Shown here one piece after another: positions 1,756 to 57,499 of a stretch of 64,000 bases of DNA; within the stretch, counting starts at the first letter, position 1, and every line of letters starts with the position of its first letter. The notes below the pieces were generated by a model that did not search any database, was not told where the DNA came from, and saw only the letters and a list, made by a program, of their open reading frames with translations. Location of the stretch: NCBI RefSeq assembly GCF_032854445.1, contig NC_088300.1, positions 46,536,984 through 46,600,983 on the forward strand, written 5' to 3'. The translations under genes were made by a program, and so were the position numbers. This DNA is from Liolophura sinensis. Its lineage: Eukaryota; Mollusca; Polyplacophora; Chitonida; Chitonidae.

Positions 1756-1828
1756 AATCAATCGGCGAACCAAATATCTTTGATTATCTCTTATTAGCAC
1801 ATTTTACAGCCACTAATATTCTCCACCG

Positions 1829-2490
1829 GAGGTTTACCACGTGCCAGAGTACACATTTCTGCATAAATCTCTTTACCTATTTCTTATTGCCACATATTAT
1901 AACCGCGATTTATCCCCACAGGAAATGTACCGCGTGCTGGAGTATACCTTTCTGCATAAATCTCTTTACCTATTTCTTATTGCCACATATTATAACCGCG
2001 ATTTGTCCCCACAGGAAATTTACCACGTGCCAGAGTGCACCTTTCTGCATAATTCTCTTTACCTATTTCTTATTGCCACATATTATAACCACTTTTTGTC
2101 CTCACAGGAAATGCACCGTGTGCTGGAGTAAAGCCTTTTGTATAAATCTCTTTACCTATTTCTTATTATCACATACTACAACCACTATTTGCCCTCACAA
2201 GAAGTGTACCGCGTGCTGGAGTACAAGCTTTCTGCACAAACCTCTTTACCTATTTCTTATTGCTATATATGACCACCACTATTTATCCCCACAAGAAGTG
2301 TACCGCGTGCTGGAGTACAAGCTTTCTGCACAAATCCCTTTACCTATTTCTTATTGTCACATATTACAACCACTATTTGTCTCCATAGGAAGTGTACCGT
2401 GTGCTGGAGTACAAGCTTTCTGCACAAATCTCTTTACCTATTTCTTATTGCCACATGTTACAACTTTTATTTGTCTCCTCCAGGAAGTGT
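1829..2490 (+). repeat. 93-95 bp tandem array containing repeated 3' splice sites
   Basis: Seven units precede the true exon at 2484. The anchor TACC(A/G)C occurs at 1835, 1928, 2021, 2114 (as CACC), 2207, 2301, 2395 and 2490, so spacings are 93, 93, 93, 93, 94, 94 and 95. Each unit consists of the first ~35 nt of the exon, then the pyrimidine-rich intron end (TTTACCTATTTCTTATTG) and a terminal CCCCACAG, CTCACAAG, CCATAG or CCTCCAG. The 93-bp units are multiples of three, so long open frames run through the array; these are a by-product of the period, not a gene. The last units (2207 onward) resemble the true exon most. Confidence 0.92.
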
Positions 2491-5400
2491 ACCGCGTGCT
2501 GGAGTACAAGCTTTTGCACAAATCCCTCCACCTTACCTTCAACATTCACACGGATACCTGGAATGTGGCCGCCCTGAAGAAAGCCGTCAGTTTGGTGGAG
2601 CACAAGGCCTTCACGTATGTATACCTGTATGGGCTATCTAGCGCAAACAGTATTTCAGTTTCTTTATATCATTAATATGCTTTACAACCGACTCAATATT
2701 ATTTCAGTTATCATGACGAAGGTATAAATGAAAAATTCTTAAATCTGATGTTAAGTAACAATCAATCAATGAATCAAGCATTCAATAGATCAGTAATGAG
2801 AAAGATGTTGTAGCTTAGTCAGAAGAAAACAGTGACTTCTAGACGATTTTGGGATGTACGAAGTACGATGCATACTCATTGCTGAAGTTTGACTGTTCTC
2901 CATATTAGATTTTAGAGACCGCTTTAAAGGACAGTTGTATCATTTGATACTTTCAACTGATATTTTGAATGCTGTCTTTCGCAGGTTTGAACAGTTGCAC
3001 TGCATCCGTGTGGCTTACCAGCTGTACGAACACCAAGACAGCAAGGGGATGTTACTTCAGCAGCGAGTCATACTCAGGACCCTTAAGGTAATATGTGCAT
3101 GCCCTCTGTGCTGTGGAAGACACCTCTGATCTTTGTATTTAGAAATTTAGAGCTATAAAACCTGCAAGGTACAGAAATTGGCTATCTCTGTTTCTGTTTT
3201 TATATGAAATAAATCCTTGCACTATATTAACTTAGTCTAACAGGTGTGATATCTCTGATTTTTTCCCCCATAGGCCTACATATGTTTTAAAGACGAGCAC
3301 ACTTTGATATTCCCATTTTGGGCTAACTTGATAAATTTTTTAAAAAATGATCTTTTTTATGTCGCTATTAATTGTGGTATATGCATCTCTTTGGGATTTG
3401 GAATTACTGTTGTTTTTGGACGGAAATTTAAAGTATACAATAACATTTTTATACCTTTAATGCTGGGTTTTTCTATTACTCATTTATTTTATTGGGATTA
3501 GACACCGAGCCTCAGAGTATTTTACTTTATATATGGTGCCTTTTTAGGTTTGTTAGCCTTAAAAAAGCTGTCTAAAACCTTATATAGTTAGTGAACTCAG
3601 ATTAGATTATGATCCTGATAAACTTATTTTTACCTCCAGATGTGTGGCCGGACAATAGCTCCATTAAAACTGATGCACCGTCTCAAACATATGAAGGGCT
3701 ATTTCGTGGAAGGCGGTAGAATACAACTTGATGAATTCCTCGACTTAATTCTCTGGTAAGTGCGGGATGAAATACAACCTACGTTATAGGCCTAATATGT
3801 GCTGTTCATGTAATGTCGATCAGAATTGAAAGTTGTTAGGAAGTGACTGTCCATGGTTGGTTGAACCATGGGAGTCGAGTCACTGCTGTTGAACACAGTG
3901 GTGGAGGTCAGACCAGTGTCAGTATAGTGCGAGTGCCTAAAGTGTCCAGTCTAATATCTTCAATATATGTTTAGGAAGTATTATAAATATGTCGGCATTG
4001 ATACCGACCTGTTACAAACACCGATTCGATAGGAACGGAGTGAAGTTTAATGTTCATGTTAATGTACACTGAGGGAGGCGGACTTGCAGTCATTTGATGG
4101 AATATAAAAAGCAACAGCCTGGATTGTAAAACTAGAGCAACGACAAAAGTTTGATAGTTGGCAAATGCTTAAATATTAGTAACTTACACACGCCCCCTAA
4201 CCTCATGGCTTAAGGAGATGGTCCAAAACGCATTTAATTGAAATTCATCAGACGTCAGTGGCCTATAATTACTCTAAATGCTGAGTTGTCATCAGATTTA
4301 ATAAACACGAAAACATTAAAACAATGCAAAGGGACTCCCGTGTGACTTTTGTCAACTTCTTATCTTCTGTCACGAACACCGTTTTACCATCCCTGAAAAG
4401 GGAGGTAATTCCGTGAGACTTCTGCACACATACTTTGTGAGTTCTGAATAACTTTTATTCCTTTTAACTGAAAAGAAACAGTGCTGAAGTTGATTTGTGA
4501 TTCGGAACAATTGTAATATTGGAACATTGTACACATATATAGATAACGATAATTGTATCAACAATGTTTCCAATGTAGCTTATCTACAAAGTACCCTGGG
4601 TACCCTACACGTAGGTAGTGTACAGCCTAGCGCACACGGACAACATTTGCTGTCCAAAATTAAATGATTCGGAATATTGGTTACCCGCACACGAGTAACA
4701 TTTGTTGTCCATTTTTGAAGATTCCAGCAGCGAAAACACGGTCACATGATACGTTCAAGGTCATGTGACACTAAAAAGGTGTGTCACAGCTTCCACTTTG
4801 TATATAAGGTGACATTTCCTTAGACGCCTATGTGTTGAAGTAGACGACAACAATTTCACAAGATCCAGATTGTCCGCAGACGAGCGACATTTTGTGCAAG
4901 GCTCATTTGGTCCTGGATTTATTGATGCTCAGAATTAAACAGGCTGAATCTTTGGATCAAGTGTTTCAGACTTCTTGTTGTGGTTACCCGCACACGAGTA
5001 AATTTCGAGGATTTTTTTCTTGTCTGGATCAAGAAATCTCGTTTTCGTCAACAAATCTTGTCTGTATGCGCTGGACTTAAGGATGAGTTCTAAATTCGTG
5101 GCCAAGGGACAAAAAAAATGGCCACCGGTTATGTCTGGGGATAACTGGAAGAAAAACAAATCCACTGATATCCCTTACTTTTCCCAGTCACCATGCAGAA
5201 GCTGATAATGCGTGTACTTTGTAATGAGCAGGTGTGACATATACGAGGGGTTTCAATCAGACGAGCTCATCTACAGTCGTGGGATGGATAATGATTTGTT
5301 CAAGGTAAATCACTACACCTGTAAAAAAATAAGTAATCTTGGTTTTGAAAATCCGCCGTTATGAAAACGTGAATCTGCTACGGTAAAGACATTGGTAGAT

Positions 5401-8400
5401 AAACTCAATACCATACGTAATATTTCATATTCCAGTTTTGTATCAACAGCAATATATCAACGCACTGCTGGCCTAAGTAAAAGTTCTTGAGTGCGACGTA
5501 AAACTCCAATCAAATAATTATACGACGGCAGTTACCATCTATGTTGTAATTACTAACTGGCATGTCTATCTGTCCGTCAGCTGGTTGCCTTTGACCGCAT
5601 GTTAACTCATCATGACCAGAGACTATCTGAACGACTCAACTCGGAATACATGGCAGACGAGTGGGACTTTGGGCAGGAATCTCTGGGAAGTAAACGAATG
5701 TTTAAGGAACCACCAGTCAATGATCAAATTAGAGTCCAGCAGGTAAGCCATTGTGTCCATTTGGCCACATTTTCGCTATACAAATGTTTAATACTGCGAT
5801 CATTTAAAATTGCCATGATTTGATAATTTATTTCTCTTTGATGTAAATGATATCAACATGTCTGAGCACAAGCTAATGGGAAGGCGGCAGTTAGCTGGAA
5901 GCAAGACGTCTAGACGTTTTTAGAATATGGGACGAATTGAATATGAAAAGAAATATGATATACATAGTAGAAGATGACACACGATATTAAAACTGTATAA
6001 TTTTCAAACTAATGAATGTCCGTTAATTATATGATTAGGTTTACTTTAATGTAAAGAAAAGGACACATAATATTATAAGTCTCTGTTTTTCAAATTTACA
6101 AACGTTCAAGAATGCTTGAGAATATTCCAACAAACTCCCAATGGCAACCAGCAAATCTCAAGAAGCTACCAAAAAATGCAATGAAGGTACCGACGGATGT
6201 CAAAATTTTACCCACCCATCTCAAGAAGATACCGGAATATCCCAACAAATCTCCAAATTGTAAGCGAACCAAGAAATCCCAAGGTGATACAAAGAGTCAA
6301 ATATCAAGATGGCACCCGTTTTAACAAATCCTTTTTTTTTTCCCTCGACAGGTTCAGAAACAAAGAGCAGCTTTCCATCCACTGAGGACAGAGGTGGATC
6401 GTTCTCAACACAGGGTTTACCGGTCTCGCGTTGGCTTCGTTAGACCGCGTCCTCTGACGGCTCCAGATCTCACTCGCTATGGGCAGACAACTGCGTCTTC
6501 TAACAAATCTGCCGATGGCACAGTGGCCTTAAGTGCCTACGAAATCATGCAAAAACTGCGTAGAAAGCCCCCTTCATCAGGTAAACCTGTCAATTATTTC
6601 CATTCCCCAAAATACTGACACCGAGTTTTACAAAAATCCATGAGGTTCTTCAGACCGAGAAATATTTGTCAACAAGATAGGGTCGGTTCAATAGACCGGG
6701 GTGGGGGTAGAGGTTTTTTACCTGTTCTAAACAAAAAGTAAAGAAATTTTTTCAGACTTTTTTGAAATTTGGGAGCGCACTTTTTGACACTATAAAAGGT
6801 ATTTTGTGGAATGATCAAATAATAATACCTTACTTATAAACAGTTATCAAAGATGAATTCCTGTCTGGATTTTGTGGTCTTCAAACGCTTACAGTTTTAT
6901 TTTATTATAGAACAGTTTTTCACCGGTGCCCCTTCCTTGATAGATATTTCTTGGTGCATTAGAACGCTCTATTCAGAAACACATACAAGACTGTCATAGT
7001 TATGCCGTTATTATGCGATATTGCACGATGCCTAATTCGGTATTGTATATTTAAGTCTTACTTTAAGTAGGTTGACGGTAACTCCACAAAAAATGATATT
7101 GATATGACCTTTCAAAAATTATATTATCTGTCCTGAAAAGTATTTTTATCTTCTAAAATGGCCAGCACATTTACTCCGTGGCTGTCTACATTCAGTTAAC
7201 TTAATGTCACCGAAAAAATGATCAATAACAACTTCATGCTTTCAGCCGATGCCTCTAAACTACGCCATACCGAACCATTTCAACCAATCGCCACCGAGAG
7301 AAAACATATACCCTCTGTTGTCACAGCTGATGATGTCACAGACGCGGCAAACAAACTTCATGACGTCATGTTTCAAATGGAAACACTGGTGACTAAAAAC
7401 AAGCATAGTTATACAGATGACATGACATACAGGCCCAGGGATCACAAAGCGATTTTAAGCTTAAGTCAAAATTTTAATCTTTAAAATTTATATGTTCCTT
7501 TCCGTTCACAATAACTTATCCAGAATTTACGTTGTCAAGCAATATTTTGACGTTGTTACGTAAGCAATAACAATTTTACAGTGATATGAAATCTTGACTT
7601 AAGCCTAAGTTTGTTTCGTGATCCGGGGGCCCGGTTTTCAGCTACATGAAGGCGTCTTGAAGATTTATTATATCGGGCTCTGGCTAACCCTCGCTTAATC
7701 TGCGGCTTTGTAACTTGAATAAAAGCGGTATAGTTTACGTCGGTTTCCTCAACCCGTCGTATAAATGAAAACTTACACAGAGTATGACGTTATATAAAGA
7801 CCGATCAAATAACTACATAAATGTGTGTAATTGTTATTATTTTTAGGCATCATTAATGCTAAGCCGCATTGTACTGGCACGATTTACCAGTTTTCCCTTC
7901 ACGCACAACATATCATTTAGAGCTTTAATGAGGGTGACATCGAGTGCTTTCCATCAAAAATCACTAACTAGATACACTGTTATACTTTTTTACATTCTCA
8001 TTTCCCAGAACTGGGAATCCGTGATAATTAATAATTTTAAATACTGTGATTAACAATTACCATAGGCCTAGAATCCTGTTTGTCATGCTTTTCAGGAAGT
8101 CAGATACGAATATGAAATGAAAAGAGACCTGGGCTTCCTGTTACCTCATTACACGGGGGGTCCCCGCCGTGTGCACGGTACGTCATCTTGTTCCGTCGGA
8201 TTAGAACATATGTCCTCGTTTATTTTCACTTTTATCGTAGCTGTATCTGGATTGTCCATTTGAGTGCATAAAGTGTACTTTTAATAATGTGCCGAGTTTT
8301 CCCCAGATTACCCCACCTGGTGAATTGAATATAAGTGGTACTTACAGGAGAGATCCTTTCCAGCTTTAAGTAAGTCAGGCTTAAGCTGTGTAGTAGCAAA

Positions 8401-11400
8401 CTGGAATCATAATGCATGTGTAAATAGAGAAAAATTGCCAGTGCGGCTTGGGTCGCCATTAAGCGGGAAAAGGTACCTCATTCGGTAATTTCAGTGAGAT
8501 GACAAGGCATCTTTAACCAGCTGATCCACTGAACAGCATAGCATAATAAATAAACAAAGCGACTGTGAAGAAATTCATTTTGACGATCTCAGTATTGCTA
8601 CTTTAATGAAGTTATCCTCGGGAGAATTTTGCCAAGGGAAGCACGTTTTAGCTATAGAGATGTTTGCAGTAGGCTCCCAGAAAAACATAATGCACAAACA
8701 TGTCTGAAAAGATAAGCATGGTAATAAACATTTATGGTCATCAGAATGATTTTTTCGAAGTTAATTTGCCCCTTTATTGAGGTAGACGTACATCTATACC
8801 TTACCTACCACAAATAAGTTAACGATGCTGCATGCGACTGAGTGAATCTTACATTGTTGTCTGTTATGTACACATCTTCTTGTTTAGGTGATCGGTCACA
8901 AAAGTTACGAGTGACCTCCATTATGTATTGACTGAAAACACTATATTTTTTTTTTCAGGACCGGATTCGGAAATTGCAAAGAATAATCCAAATCTAATTA
9001 AAAAGAAATCTTCAAAAATATCTCTCGAAGGTCGAATTGATCAATTAGTGCATCCTCGTTCCCATGCGTCTGTGAGTCACTCCAGGACGTGTGACGCCAG
9101 GTAAGTTTATCATGCGTATTTTGTAATCATTCCAAAACGTGTGACGCCAGGTAAGTTTATCATGAGTCTTTTGTAATCACTCCAAAACGTGTGATGCCAG
9201 GTAAGTTTATCATGAGTCTTTTGTAATCACTCCGGGACGTGTGACGCCAGGTAAGTTTATCATGAGTCTTTTGTAATCACTCCAAAACGTGTGACGCCAT
9301 GTAAGTTTATCATGAGTCTTTTGTAATCACTCCAAAACGTGTGACGCCAGGTAAGTTTATCATGAGTCTTTTGTAATCACTCCGGGACGTGGAGCGCCAG
9401 GTAAGTTTATCATGAGTTTTTTGTAATCATCCCAAGACGTGTGACGCCAGGTAAGTTTATCGTGAGTCTTTTGTAATCTCTCCAGGACGTGTGACGCCAG
9501 GTAAGTTTATCATGAGTCTTTAGTAATCACTCCAGGACGTGTGACGCCAGGTAAGTTTATCATGAGTCTTTTGTAATCACTCCAGGACGTGTGACGCCAG
9601 GTAAGTTTATCATGAGTCTTTTGCAGTCATTCCAAAACATGGGGCGTCAGATGAGTGTATTACGAGTGTTTTGTACATGAATGAATTGCAGAACTTACAT
9701 GAACAATTAGAATTAAACCCTGATAGAAGTAAATTGACAAGAGGTCATATTTCACCGCTTAATTGTGACCGTTTGCCATCTATCAAACTGTCGTCGCTGC
9801 TCTGGTTTTACTCTCTATGCTATACGTTTTTAACTACATTCAGTAGAAAATCCAAGATATGTGACGCCAGGCAAGTTTATCATGAGTATTCTGTAGTTAT
9901 CTCAAAACAGGGGACGCCAGGTTAGTTTATCATGAGTATTCTGTAGTTATCTCAAAACAGGGGACGCCAGGTTAGTTTATCATGAGTATTCTGTAGTTAT
10001 CTCAAAACAGGGACGCCAGGTTAGTTTATCATGAGTATTCTGTAGTTATCTCAAAACAGGGACGCCAGGTTAGTTTATCATGAGTATTCTGTAGTTATCT
10101 CAAAACAGGTGACGCCAGGTTAATTTATCAGTAGCCTTCATTAGAAAATCCAAGATATGTGACGCGAGGTAAGTTTATCACGAGTATCCTGTCGTCACCC
10201 AAAGACATGACACGCCAGGTGAGTTTATCATGAGTATTATGTAGTCACTCCACGACATGGAACGCCAGGTAAGTTTGTTAGTAGACAACCCTAGACATAG
10301 AACGCCAGGAAAGGATATGGTATGTTAAGGCGGGGAATCAGCCCCAGTGCAAGAAACTGTGCACCTCAAGAAGCGAAACTGACAATAACTGTGACTGACA
10401 GCTGCTGACACACTCGTAGGATATTTCTTTTTTCAGCTCTGTTTTACTTTTCTCTTCCTGTTATATGGACAGCATGCATTGAAGCAATGTATTGGTCATA
10501 AAATTAAAAACGGTAGCCTGCTCCACAAATATCTCTTTTTTTTTCTTTTTTTTTTTTTTTTGGTATTAGACACAGTAGAGTGGGGAAAACCACTGCACCA
10601 CAAATGTAACTTTCTGAAAAATTCTTCAGCACGCAGTTATACACCAACTGGTTAAATACATATATAACAAATATTCAGCCTTATACTTCCGCTACGCTTA
10701 ATGTTAATGTTAATGATAACTGGTGGACCACATGTGCTCTCAACCAGGATTCACTTATGGTTTCGCTATAGTTGCCACACGTTACGTAAAACCATGACTT
10801 AACAGTTATCTACTCTAATTCATGATAATTCCTCTCCGGCCGTACGTGGGAAGGTCTGTGGGAAGGTCTGTCAGCAACCAGAGGATGGTCGTTGGTTTCC
10901 CCCAGGTTCTGCCCGGTTTCTTTCCACCATAATGCTGGCCGCCGTTGTATAACTGAAATATTCTTGAGTACGGCGTAAAACACCAATCAAATATATAAAT
11001 ATTAAATGATTCATGATAACACTTATTTAATGAAAGACAACCTATGTCCTTACTCACTCAAAAATGTATGTTACCAAAGAAAAAGAAATCGTCAGAAGAT
11101 TCGACTTCATCAGTGCACTGGGCTATGAAGGATACCTGACAGACTTTGGCAGAAATACGGACTTTAAACTTATGCCACAATATAACAAAACTGATCATAT
11201 TACATAGTTTATTTTTTACATATGAAGACAAACCTTAACCAAAACGAAACTTTGATAGCACGTAGAAATACAAACGTGAAAGTTTCAGTGAAGATATTTT
11301 TCTGGTTAACGTTGATTTCATTCTGAACATTAAAGACACAGTGCCTCGTTTGAACGGAAAAATTAGCGTATTTTTGGCGAGTTAATACCATGTAAACATC

Positions 11401-13169
11401 TCTTTTATAGTCATATAACTTTTATGGGTGATTCGACCAAGTTGTATACTTCTAATTTTGAAAATTACAGAATTATGCCGGGATTTTGAAATTTGCATTT
11501 TCTTATCGTGCTTCTCTGGGATCGATTCTCCGCCTTACCATACCACGTCTTTTTATCACTAGCTTTCAGTATGAAATCCAAGACATGGAACGTCAGGTAA
11601 GTTATCACGAGTAGTCACGAGTCACTCGCCAATGGTACGTGGCGCCAAATAAATTTATCACCAGCCTTCAATACTCATTCGAATACATGTCACCACAGGT
11701 GAGTTTTATAGAGTCAGTTTAAGAGGAACGTGCGCATGCAACTCAAAGATAAGTCACATTATTATAGGTATGCTTCACACAAATCTTTAACTGCTAAAAT
11801 GGAAAGAAAAATTGATAGCGTTGCTTAATTTATTCAACTTTAGGCTATTGTTTTACCCGTGAGAAATGGAACAGTTAATACTGTAAATAGTGTACAAATA
11901 AAGTCGAGTGATTTATGTTGTAGGCACCGGGGCTGGCATGCTGCAAATACCAACGAAGGGCGCCATTACATACTGAGTTCACCTACACATCACAGATCCC
12001 CACAGGCTCATCTTCATCAACGTCTCTTTGAAAAGTCTTCCAAGGAAATTCGACATCTACACGGAAGCTACTTGTACCGCCATACTCCTTCACAACAGGA
12101 TGGTATTGGGAAAGCACGGCGACCATCCACTGCCCCGAGCACAACCAATGGAGGCCATTCTATGGATGGGTCACAAAGCGACTCTGAAGAGACCAAGTGT
12201 ATGGGTGACGACATGTACAGCGTTCAGGCAGAGGGTACCATCAGAGGATTATCGGAAGCCCAACCCCTGATTCGTGAACCGACAATACCTAAATGTACGA
12301 AAGTTGAACCAGAGAAATGCAACATTCCCTCTAACGACACATTGACAAAGGACGAGCCGTCACGTGATTGTCCTGACCCACTGGACCATGCGAGCTCCGA
12401 TGAGAGAATCCCCGCGCACGGTGTGGAGGACGAAAAAGAAGATGGCCGCCAAGATGTAAATTTTTTGCCGCCACCTTCAGCTGACGCTGTTACAAGACAG
12501 GACGAACTAACTACCGCTGAAACCTCGACTTCTAAAGACATTTCCAAAGAAAAGAGCTGCTTATCGCCTCCACCACTGCCAGTTCCGTACATGAAGCATT
12601 CCAAACCGGCCGTTGTGGAGGTTGGACAAATTGGTAAAATATCGCTCCTAGAAAACATTGCTGAGTCTCGTTTCTACGAGTCTGTTGCGGAAAGCTCTGG
12701 TATCAAAAAAAGCAAAATCACCAACGGCTCGTTAGAACCGTCTGCAAAGGAATCGAGAGGTGATCACAGCGTGGATAATGGAATTGTAGAGTGTGACTTG
12801 AAGACAGTTTTGACAGAGACTGCAACATCTGAACAAGAATCGTCCCACATAACCCAGATCGATGCTGAAGCGGAAGAAGAGCAAAAACTCAGAGCTATTG
12901 CCATGCTGCGCATTTACACCCACAGACTCGCCACACCTCGAAGAGGAAGCAAACGCTGGAAACAGAGTAGTCGTAGTGTTGCTGGTGAACGAAGATCTGT
13001 ATCAGCGAGGTGTTCCCGGCCCTCGGGGGCTAACCGCTGTGGAAGAGTTTGGGAGGAAGATGGGTACCGACGTGTCACCAAGTCTGCACATGATAAAACA
13101 AGGAAAATGATCAATGTGTTAACATCCAAGTCTTTTATAATCTCACAGAAAACTGGACCGACCATATAG
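2484..13169 (+). CDS. EF-hand-like protein of unknown function, C-terminal ten exons (5' end outside window)
   Basis: Exons: 2484-2614, 2985-3087, 3640-3755, 5232-5304, 5581-5742, 6352-6580, 7246-7388, 8096-8177, 8959-9100, 11924-13169. All have AG/GT borders, phases agree at every junction, and the sum is 2,427 nt (808 codons plus a TAG stop). The first exon starts in phase 0 inside the protein, so the N-terminus is upstream of the window. Residues from about 46 to 115 of this part look like a paired EF-hand whose loops have the central Gly and hydrophobic residue (HQDSKGMLLQ; EGGRIQLDEF) but lack most acidic calcium ligands, so calcium binding is unlikely. The remaining protein is polar and Ser/Pro/Glu-rich, with no membrane segment. 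I do not recognise the family; a ciliary or EF-hand scaffold protein is only a guess. The least certain border is the donor at 7389, chosen because CTG|GTGACT is the site I found that keeps phase. Confidence 0.78.
2985..3755 (+). CDS. Exons encoding the degenerate EF-hand pair
   Basis: Two exons, 2985-3087 and 3640-3755, encode the two helix-loop-helix units. The first reads CIRVAYQLYE, then loop HQDSKGMLLQQR and RVILRTLK. The second reads APLKLMHRLKHM, then a loop with GGRIQLDEF and DLIL. The spacing (about 36 residues between loops) and the pattern G-x-I-x-x-x-E-F in the second loop match the EF-hand fold. Acidic residues at loop positions 1, 3 and 5 are missing in the second loop and mostly missing in the first. 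This suggests a structural, non-calcium-binding EF-hand, inferred by eye only. Confidence 0.6.
4620..5002. repeat. Region with dispersed direct repeats (possible DNA-element fragment)
   Basis: TGGTTACCCGCACACGAGTAA is present exactly at about 4678 and 4981. Related words CGCACACGGACAACATTTGCTG (4632) and CGCACACGAGTAACATTTGTTG (4688) lie 57 bp apart, with a third diverged copy near 4873. This lies in the intron between exons at 3755 and 5232. It may be a decayed DNA transposon; no transposase frame is visible. Confidence 0.35.
5462..5520 (+). repeat. SINE tail fragment (AATCAAATAA family)
   Basis: TTCTTGAGTGCGACGTAAAA followed by CTCCAATCAAATAA matches the 3' end of the tRNA-headed SINE family seen in full near 29990 and 40106. 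Only the tail survives. It lies in an intron of the EF-hand-like gene. Confidence 0.6.
7432..7632. mobile_element. Foldback MITE, ~200 bp, in intron
   Basis: The left arm starts GGCCCAGGGATCACAAAG and includes GCTTAAGTCAAAATT. The right arm contains ATCTTGACTTAAGCC and ends CGTGATCCGGGGGCC. The right arm reverse-complemented aligns with the left over about 45 bp with several mismatches. There is no coding capacity between the arms. The element begins about 45 bp after the exon donor at 7389, so it sits at the start of that intron. Target-site duplication was not resolved by eye. Confidence 0.7.
9078..9650 (+). repeat. 50-bp tandem array of 5' splice sites
   Basis: Donor-like GTAAGTTTATCATG(A/C)G starts exactly every 50 bp at 9101, 9151, 9201, 9251, 9301, 9351, 9401, 9451, 9501, 9551 and 9601. 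Each is preceded by about 23 nt copied from the end of the exon (TCACTCC..GACGTGTGACGCCAG). Ten of eleven have CAG|GTAAGT; the one at 9301 has CAT|GTAAGT. The first, at 9101, is the border of the coding exon. Reading past it in frame gives TAA at once (GCC AGG TAA), so use of any downstream donor would place a stop in the message. Confidence 0.95.
9841..10315 (+). repeat. Diverged continuation of the splice-donor array
   Basis: After about 190 bp of unrelated sequence the same 50-bp theme resumes: GACGCCAG followed by GCAAGT (9871), GTTAGT (9921, 9971, 10020, 10069), GTTAAT (10119), GTAAGT (10169), GTGAGT (10219) and GTAAGT (10269). The units between 9921 and 10119 are nearly identical to each other, so this is a separate and more recent local expansion of a variant unit. 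A further decayed copy is at about 11570-11660 (CGTCAG|GTAAGTTATCACGAG). Confidence 0.85.
10828..11006 (+). mobile_element. SINE, body and tail
   Basis: Contains CTCTCCGGCCGTACGTGGG, the block GGTTTCCCCCAGGTTCTGCC, ATAATGCTGGCCGCCGTTG, and the end AAATATTCTTGAGTACGGCG with AACACCAATCAAATATATAAA. The tRNA-like head seen in the copies near 29990 and 40106 is missing, so it is 5' truncated. It lies in the last intron of the EF-hand-like gene. Confidence 0.8.
11924..13169 (+). CDS. Terminal exon of the EF-hand-like gene (414 codons plus stop)
   Basis: The acceptor is TTATGTTGTAG|GCACC and the exon supplies the last nucleotide of the AG|G codon, so it joins the donor at 9101 in phase. It encodes a hydrophilic tail rich in Ser, Thr, Glu and Lys, with a proline cluster (SPPPLPVPY) and basic stretches (RGSKRWKQSSR). 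No domain or transmembrane segment is visible. It ends KTGPTI and TAG. The frame stays open for more than 1.2 kb in AT-rich surroundings, which supports real coding. An upstream ATG at 11859 lies in the intron and is not the start. Confidence 0.85.
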
Positions 13170-18751: not shown

Positions 18752-21700
18752 ATGTTTTTATTTTCTATTTTAATCTTTGGTCTTGCTGTCGTTCAAAGAA
18801 TGGTGAGACAAAATGGCGAACACAAGGCGACGTCGACAGCTGGCAGTCGCTGGGCCTCCATTAGACAGAGCAAACTGTTTCCCGGAGCTATTGGCATTTT
18901 GGGTGGAATTTTGGGAGGAGGTTTTCTCTTTATGCTCCTCGTGCTTAGTTACGACTACTCCCCGTTTGTAGCAGGAATCATCTCTGCTGTGGTCACCTTG
19001 GCGATGTGTGTGGCGATGGCCTTTTCTCACCGCGCCCGCTGTACGTGCCTCCTGGTCCTCCCAAGTCTGGCCACAGGCAGGGGTAGGGCGGCAATCTTCT
19101 CACTCATCACAGCCCTACTCCTCCAGGGACCCGTCCTGAACTTAAACTTCAACGTGAACGAGATGGCGGCCAGCTTGTCCTGTGGTACGGAACTAGCCTA
19201 CAACCAGAGTCGAGAGCTACAGGAGCTGTTGAGGAAACCGATAGAAGCCCTGAATAATCAAATCATGGAGAATGTGGAGGAGTTCCGTGCAGTTGGATCT
19301 GGGATTCGAGGCGTTGTTAACGCCGTGGAATCAGCCACTCAAAGAGCGCAGAATTCGATAAGAGACGCCGTGAGCGCGGCGACATCAGTGAGTTTACCTT
19401 AACTTTTGCTTTATCACCACTTTATTTTATATTCATTAAGAATATATGCTAAATCAGCGCATTTTTTCATCACTATTACAGAACGCACTATGATGTGTGG
19501 TTAGAAAATGTTTAATACAGTTGGGTGAGAATAGTTAAGCATATGGCTCTCCACGCATGGCATGCTTACATGTCGTCCAACAGGAAACTTTCATTTATCT
19601 TTACAAATCGAGACAGCCATAATGTTTGGTATACTCTGAAACACTGAATGTAGAAGTTATCCGAGTTTTTAAGAATTAAAAATCCTCTTTTGATAATATG
19701 GCAGTAGTTAAATTTTTGAAATGGCTTTTTGGTTAAAGTCATATATATCTTACTACAAATTTCAAGTGCGGAGAATCGAACCAAACCTTTTACCCTTACC
19801 GATAAACTGTCAAGTCCCTTTCTCTATGATCATTACGATTTCCATTACTCATGAACCTGATAAGTGAAATACAATAGATTATACGATGTGAACTTCATAT
19901 TTTAAGGTCAAAAACATAACTCAAATATACGATCATGTATATATCACACTATATACTATATATGTGCTGAACTGGGATGAAGACGGGAACGATTTCACCA
20001 AGGTAGGTAGTTTTCAAAGGTCGCCTAATTTGACTGGTTCTGTTGTATATACACGTCATAGTTTCGAAAACAGTTATTATTACAAATTGCTATTTTGTGT
20101 TTCCTCTCATTTACAGTCATGTCGAAAGGCAATGAACAATGCCGCGAACAAGTGCTCTGGAAATGTGGACAAGGTCATTCGAGACTGTGAAGGAAAACTC
20201 AGAGTACCAGTCTTTGGGTAAGAACAGTGTTATTTAAGTTCTGCTTCTATACAACTGTGACATTAGATAAATCTACATAAACCTGGTAAAAATGAAAGGT
20301 CACGCGTGCCGCTGTAACGAAACAAAGTTGTTTAAAGGCGTGTAACGACAACTGCATAAATCATATGTTATGTTTTACAAAGATAAAGCCAATGAAGATG
20401 CAAATCCCCAGGGGACCGTTTTACAAAGAGGGTATGTCAGAAAGAACTGTAATGACGATATATTCCTAGATACTCCAACATGCTTGTCGTCGTGGTACAT
20501 TCTCTTGGTAAGGCGGATAAATATTATATCTCGCATGATTTCAACCAAATGTTAACCAATCCATGTCGATGTGCTTTGTCCAAAACAGTCGGTATAATTT
20601 AATCAAACTAACCTTAAATGACAGAGTAATAGCCCGTGCCGATGTGCTTTGTCAAACAATACCTGTGTTTTAATTATATGTATTGGTCGCATACAACCTT
20701 CAATTACATATTCCGTTATGTATGTGTTCCAGGTCAGTAACCACCGCACCTTGCAAACCACTAAACGCTGTCAGAAAATCGTGCTCCGCAGTAGGGGTTG
20801 TAGATGGAGTGTGCAACATTGTCTCAGGTGCCGACGTTGCTATTAATCGGGCATTGCAAACCTTCACCAGCGGATTCTCCGCGGTCAGGAATCAGCTTGA
20901 CTTCGGCATTCAGCAAGACGCTCCGATTAACAACAACGCAAACATTTCGCGAACAGCCCAAGAAATCACGGCAGCCATCAAGGCGGAATTCGCTCAGAAG
21001 ACGGATAGCGTACGCCTTGTTGTTAGTATCGCCAGTCGAGTAATGGCCGCCTTTCTCTTGGTTTTATTTCTAAACGCTGCCCTCTACTTACGATCATATC
21101 TCTTCAAAGACAAACACGATAATATTTACATTACCAGAGCTTTTATTGACCTTGATGAACGAAAAACCACTGAAGGTCAATCAGAGACCGTCTTACCACT
21201 GACCTCAAACGAACGTAACAAGTACATAACGGTCCGTTCCTGGCGACTTTCACCTTTCGAAAAGCGGACTTTGCTCAAGGGACTGGGAATGTTTTTCCTT
21301 CACCTTTTGATATCGTTGACTGTTTGCAGTTTGGATTACGTCTTGTACTGGGCGATGGAGATAATCCGGGATCAAGGACAGGTTGTCTTCTCTCTTACTG
21401 GAGATTCCAGTGTGCTGCTGAAAGTTACCGGTAATGGCATTATCGCACAGTTTATACGAACATTTGTTCAGGGTTTCTCCGAAGAGTTTCAGTATAACAG
21501 TACAATCAGTACGGCAGCGTGTTTGCCCGCGCCTCGACCAACCCCTAACTCCCAGCTATACACTCTGGCGTCCCTCTACCTGCTTACTCTACTGCTAGTT
21601 ATCCTACAGAGCTACGGTCTGCGTATCAGGCACTGCATTGCCAGCCTGTTCTATCCAGAGAGAGAAAAGGAAAGGGTTTTATATCTGCGCGATGCCATCT

Positions 21701-21825
21701 TTCGCAAACGCAGCTACCGAAAGTCGCAAGCGGATCGCATCAACAAGGAAGCCCATAGTGCGAAAATGAGGGCAGAGAAATTCCGTCTACCACCAAGAGG
21801 ATTCCCTTGGAAACGTGATGTGTGA
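18752..21825 (+). CDS. DC-STAMP domain-containing membrane protein (DCST1/DCST2-like)
   Basis: Exons: 18752-19387, 19907-20002, 20117-20217, 20733-21825; phases agree and the product is about 641 residues. Exon 1 encodes three hydrophobic segments (AIGILGGILGGGFLFML; VAGIISAVVTLAMCVAMAF; AIFSLITALLLQGPV). The small second exon (VKNITQIYDHVY to DGNDFTK) bridges to the Cys-rich ectodomain of exon 3 (SCRKAMNNAANKC). Exon 4 has the family block DNIYITRAF with VLPLTSNE, two or three more membrane segments, and the end YPEREKERVLYLRD. Vertebrate DCST1/2, fly sneaky and worm spe-42 are sperm membrane proteins needed for fertilisation, so a gamete role is likely by family. There is no C-terminal RING, which favours a DCST2-like assignment. 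The start could instead be the second Met at 18800. A polyadenylation signal AATAAA is at 21929. Confidence 0.88.
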
Positions 21826-25368: not shown

Positions 25369-26487
25369 CTACGGGTGGACGTCTGGCCAGTGCACTGGGT
25401 CCTCCAATGCTGGGAATAGGCTGTGTAAAGGCACGATTATATTCAGATACCAATATCGACCAAAAACAGATTTAAGTTTATTTTGTACTGACCGGCCATC
25501 TGACATCCTAATGTTGTTATCACGTTCAAACGACGTCTGTCCTTTCACTATCATGTCCATATTTATATACAGAAAATGAAACGTCAAGGGAAAAAAGAAA
25601 ATCAAAGACCACAACACAGAGGTGAGCGTTGTGGTTTTTCCGCTGGCTCGTCCAAAACACCAGCGCATGTGCACAGAGACCGGAAACATGTCCAAGATCG
25701 TCGTCTGCTCGAACATAATATAATAATAGTAAAGGCTTGAGTGGATTGCAGCATATAAACATGCCACAGAACCCCAAAAACAAAACACAATGAAGTGTCG
25801 CATGTTTCGATATCCTACACAAGAACCGACAAAAAAGCAGTGATGGTCCCGTTTGAGCACACACGTCCGACACAGAGCACAGTGGTGGCACCTCGGGGGA
25901 CGGGAATGATTACAGACGATGCAAGGCACCCAGGACCAATACGGATGAACCGTTCTCTGGGGTAGACCGCAGTCTGAGACTCCAGACATGACATACATCA
26001 CAGACGGAGAATTGTTCTTTGTCCCTTTCAGATCGTTGTTGTTGCTTACCTCTTGTTCAGTGATATGTAATTCCTCGTTTGATGAAGTGGACGTAATTGT
26101 CGCCTGTCTGATGTCTTCCCCATAAACACTCGGCGAATAGCTTGAAACCACATAACGGACACACAACCAATTGACAAACATTTCTACACATATGACGAGC
26201 ACGAAAAGTTGGCTTAGCGTTTCCCAGTATTGGGGCACTTCGGTGTAGATGGCGGGTATTACCTCGGTGTACCCGTACCAACCGGCGGTGCCGATGGTAA
26301 GCAGACACCAGACGGGGGCCCAGGTATTTAACCGACTGACATGGCATGGATCCGTCAACCACAGGTAACACGTTCCCCAAACTCCTCTCACTGACATATC
26401 GGGGTGTATAGGCCCAACCTTGCTCCAGAACTCGTGACCGGCGGACTTATCCAACTCGGTAATAATAAGGATCGTCCACGATGTCAA
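25369..26487 (-). CDS. DHHC-type palmitoyltransferase (ZDHHC22/24-like)
   Basis: A single uninterrupted 372-codon frame. It transfers palmitate to cysteines of target proteins at membranes. The Cys-rich domain is at about residues 189-233: CIVC, then RPPRCHHCALCRTCVLKRDHHC, with the catalytic DHHC at 214-217 and GSCVGYRNMRHF after it. Hydrophobic segments lie near 57-70, 92-112, 232-262 and 290-308, giving a four-pass protein with the catalytic domain between segments 2 and 3. TSFE at 318-321 is in the place of the usual TTxE motif. An insert of about 60 polar residues (120-180) precedes the Cys-rich domain. The start ATG is the first in frame; a second Met at residue 31 is possible. The last 15 codons are echoed just downstream. 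Confidence 0.9.
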   Translation of the reverse strand: MTSWTILIITELDKSAGHEFWSKVGPIHPDMSVRGVWGTCYLWLTDPCHVSRLNTWAPVWCLLTIGTAGWYGYTEVIPAIYTEVPQYWETLSQLFVLVICVEMFVNWLCVRYVVSSYSPSVYGEDIRQATITSTSSNEELHITEQEVSNNNDLKGTKNNSPSVMYVMSGVSDCGLPQRTVHPYWSWVPCIVCNHSRPPRCHHCALCRTCVLKRDHHCFFVGSCVGYRNMRHFIVFCFWGSVACLYAAIHSSLYYYYIMFEQTTILDMFPVSVHMRWCFGRASGKTTTLTSVLWSLIFFFPLTFHFLYINMDMIVKGQTSFERDNNIRMSDGRSVQNKLKSVFGRYWYLNIIVPLHSLFPALEDPVHWPDVHP

Positions 26488-26499
26488 GCAAATCAGTCT

Positions 26500-29400
26500 A
26501 TTTTACCTTTACATATCACATCTGGTGATAGAGTCAATCAAGGTTGTGTTGCTTTAGGCACGAGACGTTAGTGATCTGTGTTAACAGGGTGCCTGTGCGG
26601 ACAGCAAATCGTCTATGCCCGTGTCAGCATGCCAGTATTGGCACCTACATGTTTATATAGGTATGCACGACGGGCGATCAACACCCGCATATATAATCCC
26701 TACCACCCAATAATTCATGATCCGAATATTCAACTCAAAGCCGAATAGTTTTCAGAACTAGTTATGTAATGACAAATGATAACAAATGACCGAGTAACGC
26801 ATCGGTTTCGGATTAGTTATGGATCAGAGAACGTTCTGGATCTCCGTGGATGGTAAATAATTTGCAGATCATAACAACTACCAGGAAAAATTTCACAGAA
26901 ACTTACTCTGGTCTGGATTGGTACGGTTTGTTTTCACAAAAGTCGCAAAGTATAACAATGATTTCAAATTTATTATAATTCTTAACTCTTAAATGATACA
27001 GCATATCACATGTTGTGAGATATCAGTGCCAACTCAAATTAAAAAAGCTTTTGCCACGTAATAATTTTGAAAGCTGTAATGAAATGTTAAATTACAATAT
27101 ATTTCGCATGTACAACATTGCACACAACTCCTAAAAATGTTAATTTGACACAATATGGTGTTGGCATTTCTAAGTGGAAAAGAGCTTGGTAATTAATGAT
27201 TCAGTTTCAATATTTTAAAAGAAACTTCCGATCGCCTCAGGTTTGCACAAACTGAAATTGAGCACCTTTCAGGGGTAAAGTCCAGGGGACATTATGTTGG
27301 CAGAGCTGGACAAAATGGCGGAAAATTAGCCGCGGGTCAGAACTTATACTGTAAGCTTAAGCCGTAGCCAATTAGTACCTGAAATAGAAATCAACTCGCG
27401 CTCAGACTTGTACAGCCTAACGTAATCCGACTAATTAATCGGTCAGCAGAAATGCAGCCAACTGCACGCTACATACAAGCACTTAATGATCAGTTTAACG
27501 CCAGTCTTATTATGTACAGTATATCAACAACCTCGCCGGATCTGGGAGGTTACGCCAGGGAAAGTATAGATTATAATTAGAACTTGTCAATTCATTAGAC
27601 CAGTAACTATATGTATATTGCTCTTGGCTGATTACATTTCCAATAACGTTATTCAACTCAGTTGTATACCCCAATTCCAACACGAATAAAATGTTTGTCG
27701 AAGTTAGCGCTTATAGTTATGCATCGTTAATCAATTTGACCGATACATGAAAAATTTGATTCAAATCTGCGTTACTGGACGAGCACGCACTGAAAAAGTG
27801 TGATAAGTGGACGGGAAGTTTTTTTTTTTTAAAAACACATGTGTTTATCATGTGTGCAAAACATGTTTTCTTTCCCACTATGTATATGCTTTAGCTAACG
27901 TTTATAATCTGTTGACGCAGTTAACCTGTTTCGTGTTTTTTGACCTTTGATCATTTGCTTGTGTCGTGTCTTGCTTCTGACAAATGAGGTTGAAGGCTAG
28001 AATCCAGCTCTCGCTCGGTTTGGCAAACTGGCATTGCGAAGGGGAGTGGTCCCACTCCAGGCTCTCGGATTTTCTCAGTGCACATATAAATGTAAGTGAA
28101 TTCTTGTTTCTGGCGTTAAAGCGAAATCAAATAAATAAATAAATGTGGAATAGGCGATTGGGCCTGGCATTCCACCAAAATGAAGCGGAATTACAACGAG
28201 GTGCTGGCATATGGACCTACATATACGTGCTGATACTAAATAATTCATATAGCTTACAGTATTGTATTGTGCCATATGTTATAATAATAAAACACCTTAA
28301 TCCTATCAGCACCATGAGCATAGGTCTACACTCTTTAGTACGGCATGCCATTCGAGAGGTGTTCTATTGACATGACGATACCGGTTTACCTGTCTATGTG
28401 TTAAACACAACAGCTGTATGGCTCCCACAATCTGTGATGTTTCATCATCAATAGCACAGACCGCTAGCTGAGATATTTTCCTGTACATGTCCATACAGCT
28501 GCTGAATATATGCTGGGATAAAGTATGGATACCATATCCAAGATTACGTCATCTTCATCCATACGTCTAAGCAGATAACCTCATTATACCAATACCCAAA
28601 TTCTTCTTATCATAAGGACAGATATTATAGCAGTGGTGAAAGCAAAGAATTACATATCTATCCCAGTTTTTGGAATAGTAAAGATATGAATATGTTGTTC
28701 ATTAGATGGACTTGCCATGTGAAAAAAAAGAAACTAAAAACATATTCTTGCTTCAATTACGTGTATATTGGCTAAAAGCAGCAGACCAGGTATTCCAAAA
28801 ATTAGAAAAATTATAGGGTAAGTGATGAGATTCGTGTAACAGGTTATATGTACCTGTATAGTTTCAAAGACAGTAACGGGTTTAAATATATAGTGCTCTA
28901 TATTTCCATCCGTTATGCAGTTAGTAGACCGTGTGTTTAAACACCATTAACGAGGAGAGTACCACCTGTAACCAATTAACTTAGTAAACTGCAATCGAGA
29001 TCATTGGGAATTTTGAGGTGTACTTGTTCGCAGGCAAAGGGCCTGTACTCCACGGAACAATCAAAATTGTTTGACCGACACACTCAAACCAGCAAGAAAT
29101 GCTGGGAATTTCAAAATGATTGTTTGTAATACATTATTGTACTTTCATGCAGTAATTATATTAACAAATAATTACGAATATAATACCGGTCTTGTGCACA
29201 CATCATTTTCAACAAACTATACAATTGCAGTATTACTGATAAGTTATATACTGGCAGAATTCGGCACTTGCCATTTCTGACCGTTATGTGCAACTAATGT
29301 AATGGCAAGAGACTGTATCTCCGCCAGCGGTATAGCGTAGTGCTGAGCAGAATGTCTATACACGGATACTTCATCCTTCCTTGTTACCGATTCACAGTTC

Positions 29401-42400: not shown

Positions 42401-45400
42401 AAATATCTGATGTAATAACTCACACTGAATTGAGATTTTTTTCCACTTCATTCCATTTCTCAAATGCAGCTATTCCATGACTGGGTGTGTTCCTCAAGAT
42501 GTCCTTCACTACCAAAAAAAATTCCTGGAAGAACAACAACACAAGCCAGTTAAAGAATTCTTCAGCTAAATACACTAGTTATTGAGAGTGATCTCCCCTT
42601 GTCCACAACTCTTGGTCCAATCCATTCCCTCTCAACGTGAGCTTGTGCAAGAGTTAGCAAAATTCTGACATCACTCTGTCAGATTACTATTCCATGGCAC
42701 ACTCTTATGGTGCACTCAAATTAATATATTTTTTGACGACCAATCCCTTGAATGCTAGATGCATTGCATAAGTGAAATATTCATGAGTACTGCGAAAAAC
42801 ATCAATGAAATAAATAAATCAATAACTTGATCAATGAGGTTAAATTTTCAAATCCAGTCTCTCAATGTTTTGTCTGCTACTTTAAGATAAGATTTGTGAG
42901 GTACAAAAATCAGTGGTTAACATACAGCACTCTGATTTTGTCATTTCTCAGCATGGCAATAAATACCAATCAAATGAACACGAATAAACAAAACATAAAT
43001 AAATATCTAAATACAAGTGCACTCACATTCACATGCTTTTCAAACTGTAGAGACACTTCCATAGTGTTATCACTATAGTCAAGAGTGTCCTTCCAGGAAT
43101 GAAGCAGGAATGCGATTCTCAGCTGACGAGCTGTGTGCCTCTTCAAAGCATCTTTGATTGTGATGAAGTTCTTAAGGGATTTAGACATTTTGCACCCTTC
43201 AATGGTCAGATGCCCAGCGTGGAGGAAGTACCGCACCCAGTGATCGTTACCATAGTATGCCTGAAGAAATATTAGAAAACATATCATGTCTAAGGATTGT
43301 TGGTTTGCTTTGTGAAGGATTGCATTTCTACTTGCAGCAGACCAGTCTCAGTGTGGACATATTTACAATGCTGCCGCCTCACTACAGTGCTATGCTAAAC
43401 ACACCAAAAATGAGCTCAAACCAGTCACAGTGCACAGACATTGGCCAGACCAGCACTTGTTTTACCCTGTACATGAGGCAACAAAACAGGAAGCAACCAA
43501 ATTACAAGCACCAAAACAAGTCCTAAAATATTATGCCTAACCCAAGTTAGACATGAACTCAAGCAAGGAAACTACATGTATTAAAGCGTAGCACTAAATG
43601 TTTAATGATTGAGCATTTATACCTTGATGGCACTGGTTAGGTCACAGACTCATTACAAGGAAAATGGTCACAGCATTTCCTTTCCTGATATATGGATGTA
43701 TTTGTAAACATTTGTGCATTTACATGTATACTGGCTACAATGTATCAATATAAATACACTATAGATCTGCAAAAACAGAAACACAATTTATATGTAAAAA
43801 TTGTGATACATGTTTTCATTGTTTGGTGAAAGATTTAAACAGTAGAAGGCGCTGCAAGAGTGATAACCTCTGCCACAGCTAAATGTTGAAATTTCGCACC
43901 TACAGAGAAAGGGACAATGAGAACTGCTCTTTTTGTCCCGTATGTTTATTAAGAATTGCTTAAAAAATTCAATGGATTGATCCATTGGTCAAACTGTGCA
44001 TTAAATTTCATCCAAATCCCTGCTTAACTTCTGACAAACAGACAAATGGGGTTTTACTTCATACCTAACAATTTTTCAGTCATATGACGACGACGAGTGT
44101 ACATACTTGTACACTGTGTATTCTTGTGGCAGGACGAGTTCATGCTGCTGAACCAGCTATGTTTATCTGCTCGAACCTCTCACAACCAAGCACCAAGCGA
44201 GGCAGCAAGTACCCTTTTTATAGTCTTTGGTATGATGCATACCACAGTGCACAACCAACAAATTTCAAACATTTATTACCTCAGACTGGGCGAGTTCGTT
44301 GTCATGGTGAGGAAACTTGAGGTCAAATCCCCCTGTATGGATGTCCATGGAAGCCCCAACTATACTGCTGGCCATGACAGAGCATTCAATGTGCCAGCCT
44401 GGGCGACCCTGAGAAGTGAGAAACACATGTCAAGGACAATGGCACAGGTATACAAACATACTTCATCAACCGTGATGAAATGGTAAGAGTAAACAAATAC
44501 ACTTCATCAACCGTGATGAAATGGCAAGAGTAAACCACTAGCACAGGTATACAAACATACTTCATCAACCGTGATGAAATGGCAAGAGTAAACAAATATA
44601 CTTCATCAACCGTGATGAAATGGCAAGAGTAAACCACTAGCACAGGTATACAAACATACTTCATCAACCGTGATGAAATGGCAAGAGTAAACCACTAGCA
44701 CAGGTATACAAACATACTTCATCAACCGTGATGAAATGGCAAGAGTAAACCACTAGCACAGGTATACAAACATACTTCATCAACCATGATGAAATGGTAA
44801 GAGTAAACCACTAGCACAGGTATAAAAACATACTTCATCAACCGTGATGAAATGGCAAGAGTAAACCACTAGCACAGGTATACAAACATACTTTATCAAC
44901 CGTGATGAAATGGCAAGAGTAAACAAATATACTTCACCAACGGTGATGAAATGGCAAGAGTAAACCACTAGCACAGGTATACAAACATACTTCATCAACC
45001 GTGATGAAATGGTAAGAGTAAACAAACATACTCCATCAACCGTGATGAAATGGCAAGAGTAAACCACTAGCAACAACACATGAAAAGCATATAAAAACCA
45101 TAATCATTTTTTCACTGCTGATCTTCTCTAAATCTTTCATTCCTGAGAAACAAAACACATAATTATTATAACAATATGTTGTAATTTCAACAGAAAAGAA
45201 GAGTTTAAAACTTACACTATTTTGGACTGTGGAACTTGAGTATCTTATTACAAAATTTGCAGACACTTAAAGTGTTTGGTATTTCTTTTTTGCACACACA
45301 AAATTTCCCCTCAATGTAAGATATGTACAATGCATATATACACTTTGAAATTTGAAACTACCTTTATTTTTATCTATGACTCAAATGATATATAGTGAAA

Positions 45401-53193: not shown

Positions 53194-53259
53194 CTGAAAA
53201 TAACAATTGCCATATGTCAGATGGGTACAGAAAAGATATGTGACATAATAACAGGAATG

Positions 53260-54085
53260 GTGGAATTACAAGTAGATGTAGGTATCCTACGCCCCACAGC
53301 CTCAATGAGGTGGAATTATGTGTAGATGTAGGTATCCTACACCTCACAGCCTCGATGAGGTGGAATTATGTCTAGATACAGGTATCCCATACCTCACAGC
53401 CTCAATGAGGTGGAATTACATGTAGATGTAGGTATCCTACACCTCACAGCCTCAATGAGGTGGAATTATGTGTAGATATAGGTACGCTACACCTCACAAC
53501 CTCAATGAAGTGGAATTACAAGTAGATATAGGTATCCTACACCTGACAGCCTCAACAAGGTGGAATTATGTCTAGATACAGGTATCCCATACCTCACAGC
53601 CTCAATGAGGTGGAATTACATGTAGATGTAGGTATCCTACACCTCACAGCCTCAATGAGGTGGAATTATGTGTAGATATAGGTACGCTACACCTCACAAC
53701 CTCAATGAAGTGGAATTACAAGTAGATATAGGTATCCTACACCCCACAGCCTCAATGAGGTGGAATTACTTGTAGATATAGGTATCCTACACCCCACAGC
53801 CTCAATGAGGTGGAATTACATGTAGATGTAGGTATCCTACACCTCACAGCCTCAATGAGGTGGAATTATGTGTAGATATAGGTATCCTACACCTCACAGC
53901 CTCAATGAGGTGGAATTATGTGTAGATATAGGTACGCTACACCTCACAACCTCAATGAAGTGGAATTACAAGTAGATATAGGTATCCTACACCCCACAGC
54001 CTCAATGAGGTGGAATTACTTGTAGATATAGGTATCCTACACCTCACAGCCTCAGTGAGGTGGAATTACATGTAGATGTATAGGG
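53260..54085. repeat. 50-bp minisatellite with 200-bp higher-order units
   Basis: About 16 units of GGTATCCTACACCTCACAGC, CTCAATGAGGTGGAATTATG and TGTAGATATA. Four-unit blocks recur: the stretch from 53371 repeats at 53571 with the same variants (TCTAGATACAGGTATCCCAT, GGTACGCTAC). It starts about 70 bp beyond the CARS1 HIGH exon. Confidence 0.92.
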
Positions 54086-54289
54086 ATTATGCATCTCACA
54101 ACCTCAACGAGGTTGGATTACCCACATGGCTCCTAACACCTCATCACATCAAAACATATAGCTATCTTGCGCCTCAACAAGATGAGCTTACAGATATCTT
54201 GTACCCAATTCAAAGCCTCACAAACTCTCACTCTCTGGAGGGTTGTGTTACTCTACATCAGTACACTTCACAGTCATAGGGGGTACAAA

Positions 54290-57200: not shown

Positions 57201-57490
57201 ATAGACATCAGAACCCTACATTTCACAGTCTCAGGGAGGTACAAAATGTAGTGTTACAGATACTGGTATCTGGTAGTGTTACAGACATCAGTACCCTACA
57301 CTTCACAGTCTCAGGGAGGTACAAAATGTAGTGTAACAAACACTGGCATCCGGTAGTGTTACAGACATCAGTACCCTACATTCCACAGTCTCAGGGAGGT
57401 ACAAAATGTAGTGTAACAGGCACTGGCATCTGCTAGTGTTACAGACATCAGTACCCAACATTCCACAGTCTCAGGGAGGTAAAAATGTTG
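54290..57490. repeat. 80-bp minisatellite, about 40 units
   Basis: The unit is ACAAAATGTAGTGTTACAGA, TGCTGGTATCTGGTAGTGTT, ATAGACATCAGTACCCTACA, CTCCACAGTCTCAGGGAGGT. The period is exactly 80 over most of the array, with CAAG/GGAG and TACT/TGCT variants spread through it. It decays after 57480. Together with the 50-bp array it makes a 4.2 kb block in the CARS1 5' intron. Confidence 0.95.
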
Positions 57491-57499
57491 TGTAACAGA

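Follow-up and report, generated by a model that had tools for sequence, protein, structure and literature searches.

The array of 5' splice sites at exon 9 of an unnamed gene in the chiton Liolophura sinensis is best explained as a splice-junction minisatellite (a 'mirage') that has expanded into the intron, the protein being made from the exon-proximal donor while the further copies are tolerated, a reading to which we assign a probability of about 0.77. The array lies in a window of 64,000 nucleotides, the whole stretch of DNA analysed here (C6:46536984-46600983 of a 609-Mb assembly in 632 contigs), and all coordinates below refer to this window. The assembly was built from PacBio HiFi and Omni-C data and published as Liolophura japonica (PMC11068029), a name later corrected to L. 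sinensis (PMC12441733). In the proposed scenario, a 50-bp segment of the junction, comprising 24 exon and 26 intron bases, would have undergone tandem duplication, followed by expansion and turnover through slippage or unequal exchange, and the diverged clusters farther into the intron would be its older products. The spliceosome would use the exon-proximal copy at 9101, as suggested by the reading frame, donor strength and the comparison with other genes, and the further donor copies would be spliced out together with the intron. Selection would then maintain mainly the outermost copy, so that the remaining copies drift, while splicing from a further copy would result in an immediate stop codon and probably in nonsense-mediated decay.

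The host gene is encoded on the plus strand. Its model contains nine exons with GT-AG ends that combine into a single open frame of 393 codons, eight of them at 2484-2614, 2985-3087, 3640-3755, 5232-5304, 5581-5742, 6352-6580, 7246-7388 and 8096-8177, and the ninth, which seeds the array, at 8959-9100 (142 nt, phase 1 to phase 2). The frame continues from an acceptor at 11924 through a last exon of 1246 nt (11924-13169), whose phase matches that of the 9101 donor and which ends with TAG at 13169, yielding a predicted product of 808 aa. The intron between these two exons would thus run from 9101 to 11923 (2823 nt). Neither a start codon nor a first exon was found, open frames in the 20 kb upstream included, and a comparison of the 808-aa product with Pfam returned no family above the cut-off. 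Elsewhere in the window, large arrays with units of 50 bp (17 copies) and 80 bp (40 copies) are present at 53259-57499, near an apparent cysteinyl-tRNA synthetase gene encoded on the minus strand, for which Pfam tRNA-synt_1e matches at 42973-43347 and 52679-52888. The window further contains a reverse transcriptase fragment at 450-734 (Pfam RVT_1), probably from a LINE, and sequences of a DC-STAMP-like protein (plus strand, 20674-21822) and a DHHC palmitoyltransferase (minus strand, 25372-26502).

A preliminary description of this DNA had placed the array at the end of an exon, and this position is supported as probable by the open frame, the GT-AG ends and the U1 duplex of the donor at 9101. 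A different exon end can nevertheless be proposed, in which exon 9 ends at 9071 (TCT|GTGAGT, donor 9072) and is joined to an exon starting at 11844, leaving the array entirely intronic and all of its donors decoys. This junction is in frame, with phase 0 on both sides, and keeps the frame open for a product of 825 aa. However, the 9072 donor has a U1 duplex of only -5.5 compared to -12.1 for the 9101 donor, situated 29 nt downstream, and in five other genes of the same genome (see below) it is the donor at the array edge that agrees with the protein. We consider the 9071 end improbable.

Array 1 (9077-9626, plus strand), delimited by identity and repeat finding, consists of eleven units of 50 bp, each made up of the last 24 exon bases (copies of 9077-9100) followed by the first 26 bases of the intron. 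The GT dinucleotides at 9101, 9151 and onward to 9601 form eleven 5' splice sites at a constant spacing of 50 bp. GT is retained in all eleven units, and ten of the donors are CAGGTAAGT (CAG|GTAAGT), the exception being CATGTAAGT at 9301. This agrees with the preliminary description, which had reported eleven donors 50 bp apart, ten of them with this consensus and each with the copied exon end. Tandem Repeats Finder reports the array at 9077-9675 with a period of 50, 12.0 copies and a 90% match; a degraded twelfth unit starts at 9627, extends to about 9675 and has CAGATGAGT at the donor position. The mean pairwise identity inside array 1 is 0.915 (ungapped). Between 9078 and 10315, CAGGTAAGT was observed 11 times, ten times in array 1 and once in a second array, whereas by chance, in 1000 dinucleotide shuffles of this segment, it arose 0.011 times on average and never more than once. 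Deeper inside the exon, beyond the 24 nt, repeat similarity was not significant (p 0.34, 2000 shuffles).

Two further clusters occupy the same intron. The first, array 2 (9859-10276, plus strand), comprises 8.4 copies of diverged units with an ungapped identity to array 1 of about 0.72, and its donors read, in order, GCAAGT, four times GTTAGT, GTTAAT, GTAAGT, GTGAGT and GTAAGT. It corresponds to the later block with drifting donors (GTTAGT, GCAAGT and GTGAGT) that had been noticed before. The units that multiplied in array 2 carry the weakened donor GTTAGT, with a U1 duplex of -8.2. The second cluster, which was absent from the preliminary description, consists of older repeat remnants at 11563-11720 (plus strand), with an ungapped identity to array 1 of about 0.5; donors are present at 11597 and 11699, and the unit between them, at 11649, has lost its GT. 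The repeats are therefore homogeneous inside array 1 (0.915) and divergent in the edge copies (0.72 and about 0.5). These features also bear on the integrity of the assembly, as tandem repeats can be misassembled and the array could represent an artefact. However, the assembly is HiFi-based (PMC11068029), the eleven units differ from one another by 27 substitutions, the outlying clusters have diverged, and a genome-wide DNA search with the array repeat, in which very common words were skipped, gave two matches, arrays 1 and 2 only, at this one genomic location. An artefact is hence very hard to credit.

The same gene contains a companion array of copied 3' splice sites at 1771-2524 (plus strand), where exon 2484-2614 begins, with eight units each measuring about 93 bp. 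Its exon-proximal copy is intact, and the AG has been lost in three of the seven upstream copies. The gene model thus uses the exon-proximal copy in the donor array as well as in the acceptor array. The occurrence of two arrays within one gene may indicate a local cause.

Donor arrays are also found elsewhere in the genome. A pattern of three CAGGTAAGT words with 15 to 45 bases between them (24-54 bp start to start) matched 264 times genome-wide, compared to 158 times for the reversed word, which served as the sole control. Grouped by position, the matches listed for C1 and C2 correspond to 14 donor-word loci and 6 control loci. The spacing class 36-45, taken completely, holds 39 matches at 12 places including the locus in the window, with six of the 39 belonging to the window array. 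A total of 23 further loci, 15 from the genome-wide pattern and 8 from class 36-45, were examined for an exon at the 5' edge of the array. At five of these, fusing the array-edge exon with the exon that follows produces a single continuous protein match. The junctions at the SMAD2/3, POLR3A and GH31 alpha-glucosidase loci match a solved protein without a gap (E 5.8e-51, 1.1e-29 and 1.4e-68, respectively), the DERA locus gives a protein match (3.8e-12) whose single gap does not touch the junction, together with Pfam DeoC, and the diacylglycerol kinase (DGK) locus gives a single Pfam DAGK_acc match over the junction (3.9e-23), judged by score only. In the GH31 gene, the exon after the donor array is present as a tandem duplicate with small differences, at 5576 and about 5780 (oriented). 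At a sixth locus (L043), a BTB exon ends at the array edge, as judged from the upstream exon alone. Two loci (L033 and L037) offer just an open frame with an acceptor; their candidate exons have no Pfam match, and that of L033 has no PDB match either. The remaining 15 loci have no demonstrable exon at the array edge, with at least one array (L045) being longer than the stretch examined. Taken together, at least 6 of the 23 examined arrays are located at exon ends. Across the window gene and the five named genes, array size ranges from 11 to about 105 units, with the maximum in DGK.

Three of the 15 loci without an exon (L027, L035 and L036) have a donor minisatellite that starts at the A-rich AATAAATAAAT tail of an element that we take to be a SINE. 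Dispersed repeats can therefore carry donors, and the window array could in principle have originated from such a repeat that was inserted at the exon end and captured as a splice site. Against this origin, the window locus was the sole genomic match of its repeat (very common words skipped), and the units of the five named genes contain conserved coding bases (5 to 37 nt). Insertion of a dispersed repeat is thus a rather remote explanation compared to duplication of the junction itself. The latter fits the abundance of minisatellites, of which 64 non-overlapping arrays with a period of 20-120 were counted in 232 kb, a non-random sample. A strong donor word was found in none of these 64 outside the arrays at donor loci. 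Donor arrays are thus a minority within a dense minisatellite population, from which occasional births at junctions are to be expected.

The consequences of splicing at a further copy can be read from the frame. As had been pointed out before, a TAA follows directly after the first donor in the window gene, which is correct, yet generic, because a phase-2 intron beginning with GTAA always reads ..G TAA. None of the 24 downstream NAGGT sites is reachable before an in-frame stop, in agreement with the earlier proposal that the downstream donors give no normal protein. Regulated alternative 5' splice sites would entail more than one array donor with a usable product, and none of these 24 provides one. 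The same absence of any reachable downstream donor holds for five of the six genes (the window gene, SMAD2/3, POLR3A, DERA and DGK), the sixth being GH31 with a unit of 39 nt, in which 6 of the 14 downstream donors are reachable before a stop. The unit length is divisible by three at L043 (45 nt) and at the GH31 locus (L031, 39 nt), and both are open across several copies, so that splicing from some of the later donors would yield longer rather than truncated BTB and GH31 proteins.

The five named genes allow a comparison of position with donor strength, for which NAGGT sites were counted between the exon end and the start of the following exon, with the first donor included. In all five, the conserved protein requires the first donor, as far as sequence can tell. 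In SMAD2/3, DERA and DGK, the first donor is unsurpassed in its pairing with U1, with 12 of the 21, 22 of the 38 and 103 of the 108 sites, respectively, being equal to it. The first donor of POLR3A, CAG|GTAAAT (-8.3), is surpassed in strength by 14 of the 70 sites, and that of GH31, CAG|GTATGT (-8.3), by 13 of the 16. Since the real donors of POLR3A and GH31 are weaker than some or most of the candidates, the position of the splice site seems to outweigh donor strength in these two genes. A tentative generalization, which we hold to be possible rather than probable, is a first-donor rule in the chiton: the exon-proximal 5' splice site would be committed before identical or stronger downstream copies matter, probably co-transcriptionally, and conserved genes would therefore tolerate arrays that reach roughly a hundred near-perfect donors.

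Whether the copies are neutral or selected can be approached through the substitutions within array 1. Of the 27 changes in its 11 units, 20 fall within the 24 exon-derived columns, as expected if those copies were noncoding. The donor, occupying 9 of the 50 columns, took one of the 27 (nominal binomial p 0.03, with shared changes ignored). Eleven of the 50 possible nine-column spans, that of the donor included, are equally invariant; all of them overlap the donor, which consequently lies within the least variable stretch of the unit. The column variability of array 1 thus leans toward donor conservation. A ranking over 12 arrays (the window's two blocks and 10 of 15 loci, with L025, L027, L030, L035 and L036 left out) has the same leaning, with a mean rank fraction of 0.35 for the donor columns, although ten of these arrays had been found by their intact donors.

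U1 is well established to suppress premature polyadenylation, a process termed telescripting. The array could, as the preliminary description had speculated, be viewed as a regulatory cassette, in which the strong U1 sites would either form a switch for premature-stop decay or allow U1 to suppress early polyadenylation within the intron. In line with such a function, the ten perfect donors of array 1 are fully complementary to U1 with a duplex of -12.1 each, a stop is met immediately past the first donor, and the donor resides in the least variable part of the unit (nominal p 0.03). However, the expanded units of array 2 carry the weakened GTTAGT (-8.2), the GT has been lost in 10 of the 38 units of the DERA array, and arrays of like build occur in several unrelated genes. 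A regulatory cassette is therefore considered unlikely, and the copied donors are most likely tolerated decoys with no selected function, although the conservation leaves some room for a role.

Mirages have been described in lancelets, in Adh3, the globins BflGb6 and BflGb9, TnC and PGBD5, where tandem repeats span the boundary at either end of the intron with the AG or GT copied and splicing reportedly undisturbed (PMC3087553; PMC3902484). The chiton arrays are alike in having repeats of tens of bases or more across the exon-intron boundary, in copying the splice signals and in affecting both 5' and 3' boundaries. They differ in having a mollusc host, in occurring in several genes of one genome, in reaching about 105 copies (DGK) and, in two genes, in containing copies with a stronger U1 pairing than that of the real site. 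Furthermore, polymorphism and normal splicing are reported features of the lancelet mirages; in the chiton, splicing may likewise be undisturbed, for which the five conserved genes give indirect support, and one copy of the window locus was found in the assembly. Four features identify the window array as a probable member of this class: its unit spans the boundary with 24 + 26 bases, given an exon end at 9100; it has many copies with the splice signal (GT in 11 of 11, CAG|GTAAGT in 10 of 11); both boundary types are duplicated, the acceptor array at 1771-2524 lying in the same gene; and the inner copies appear to have turned over in concert, with divergent copies at the edges.

Two other systems are related. 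Genes in human segmental duplications contain variable internal tandem repeats, some at exon-intron boundaries (PMC2812944), and resemble the chiton arrays in that minisatellite expansion touches splice junctions, but these repeats average about four copies, belong to recent paralogues and are half coding (PMC2812944). Intron gain by tandem duplication (PMC4974935; PMC2891723) is similar in that the duplicated segments can carry splice signals, whereas the chiton array lengthens an existing intron. A search of the open-access literature, with several terms required jointly, showed no mirages outside lancelets, including in molluscs and chitons, among the results listed.

Studies of how one of several equal 5' splice sites is chosen have used a few artificial duplications. 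A single chiton genome would provide natural tests of this choice in six genes, for five of which the correct protein is known. Furthermore, the presence of mirages outside lancelets would mean that they are not a lancelet oddity.
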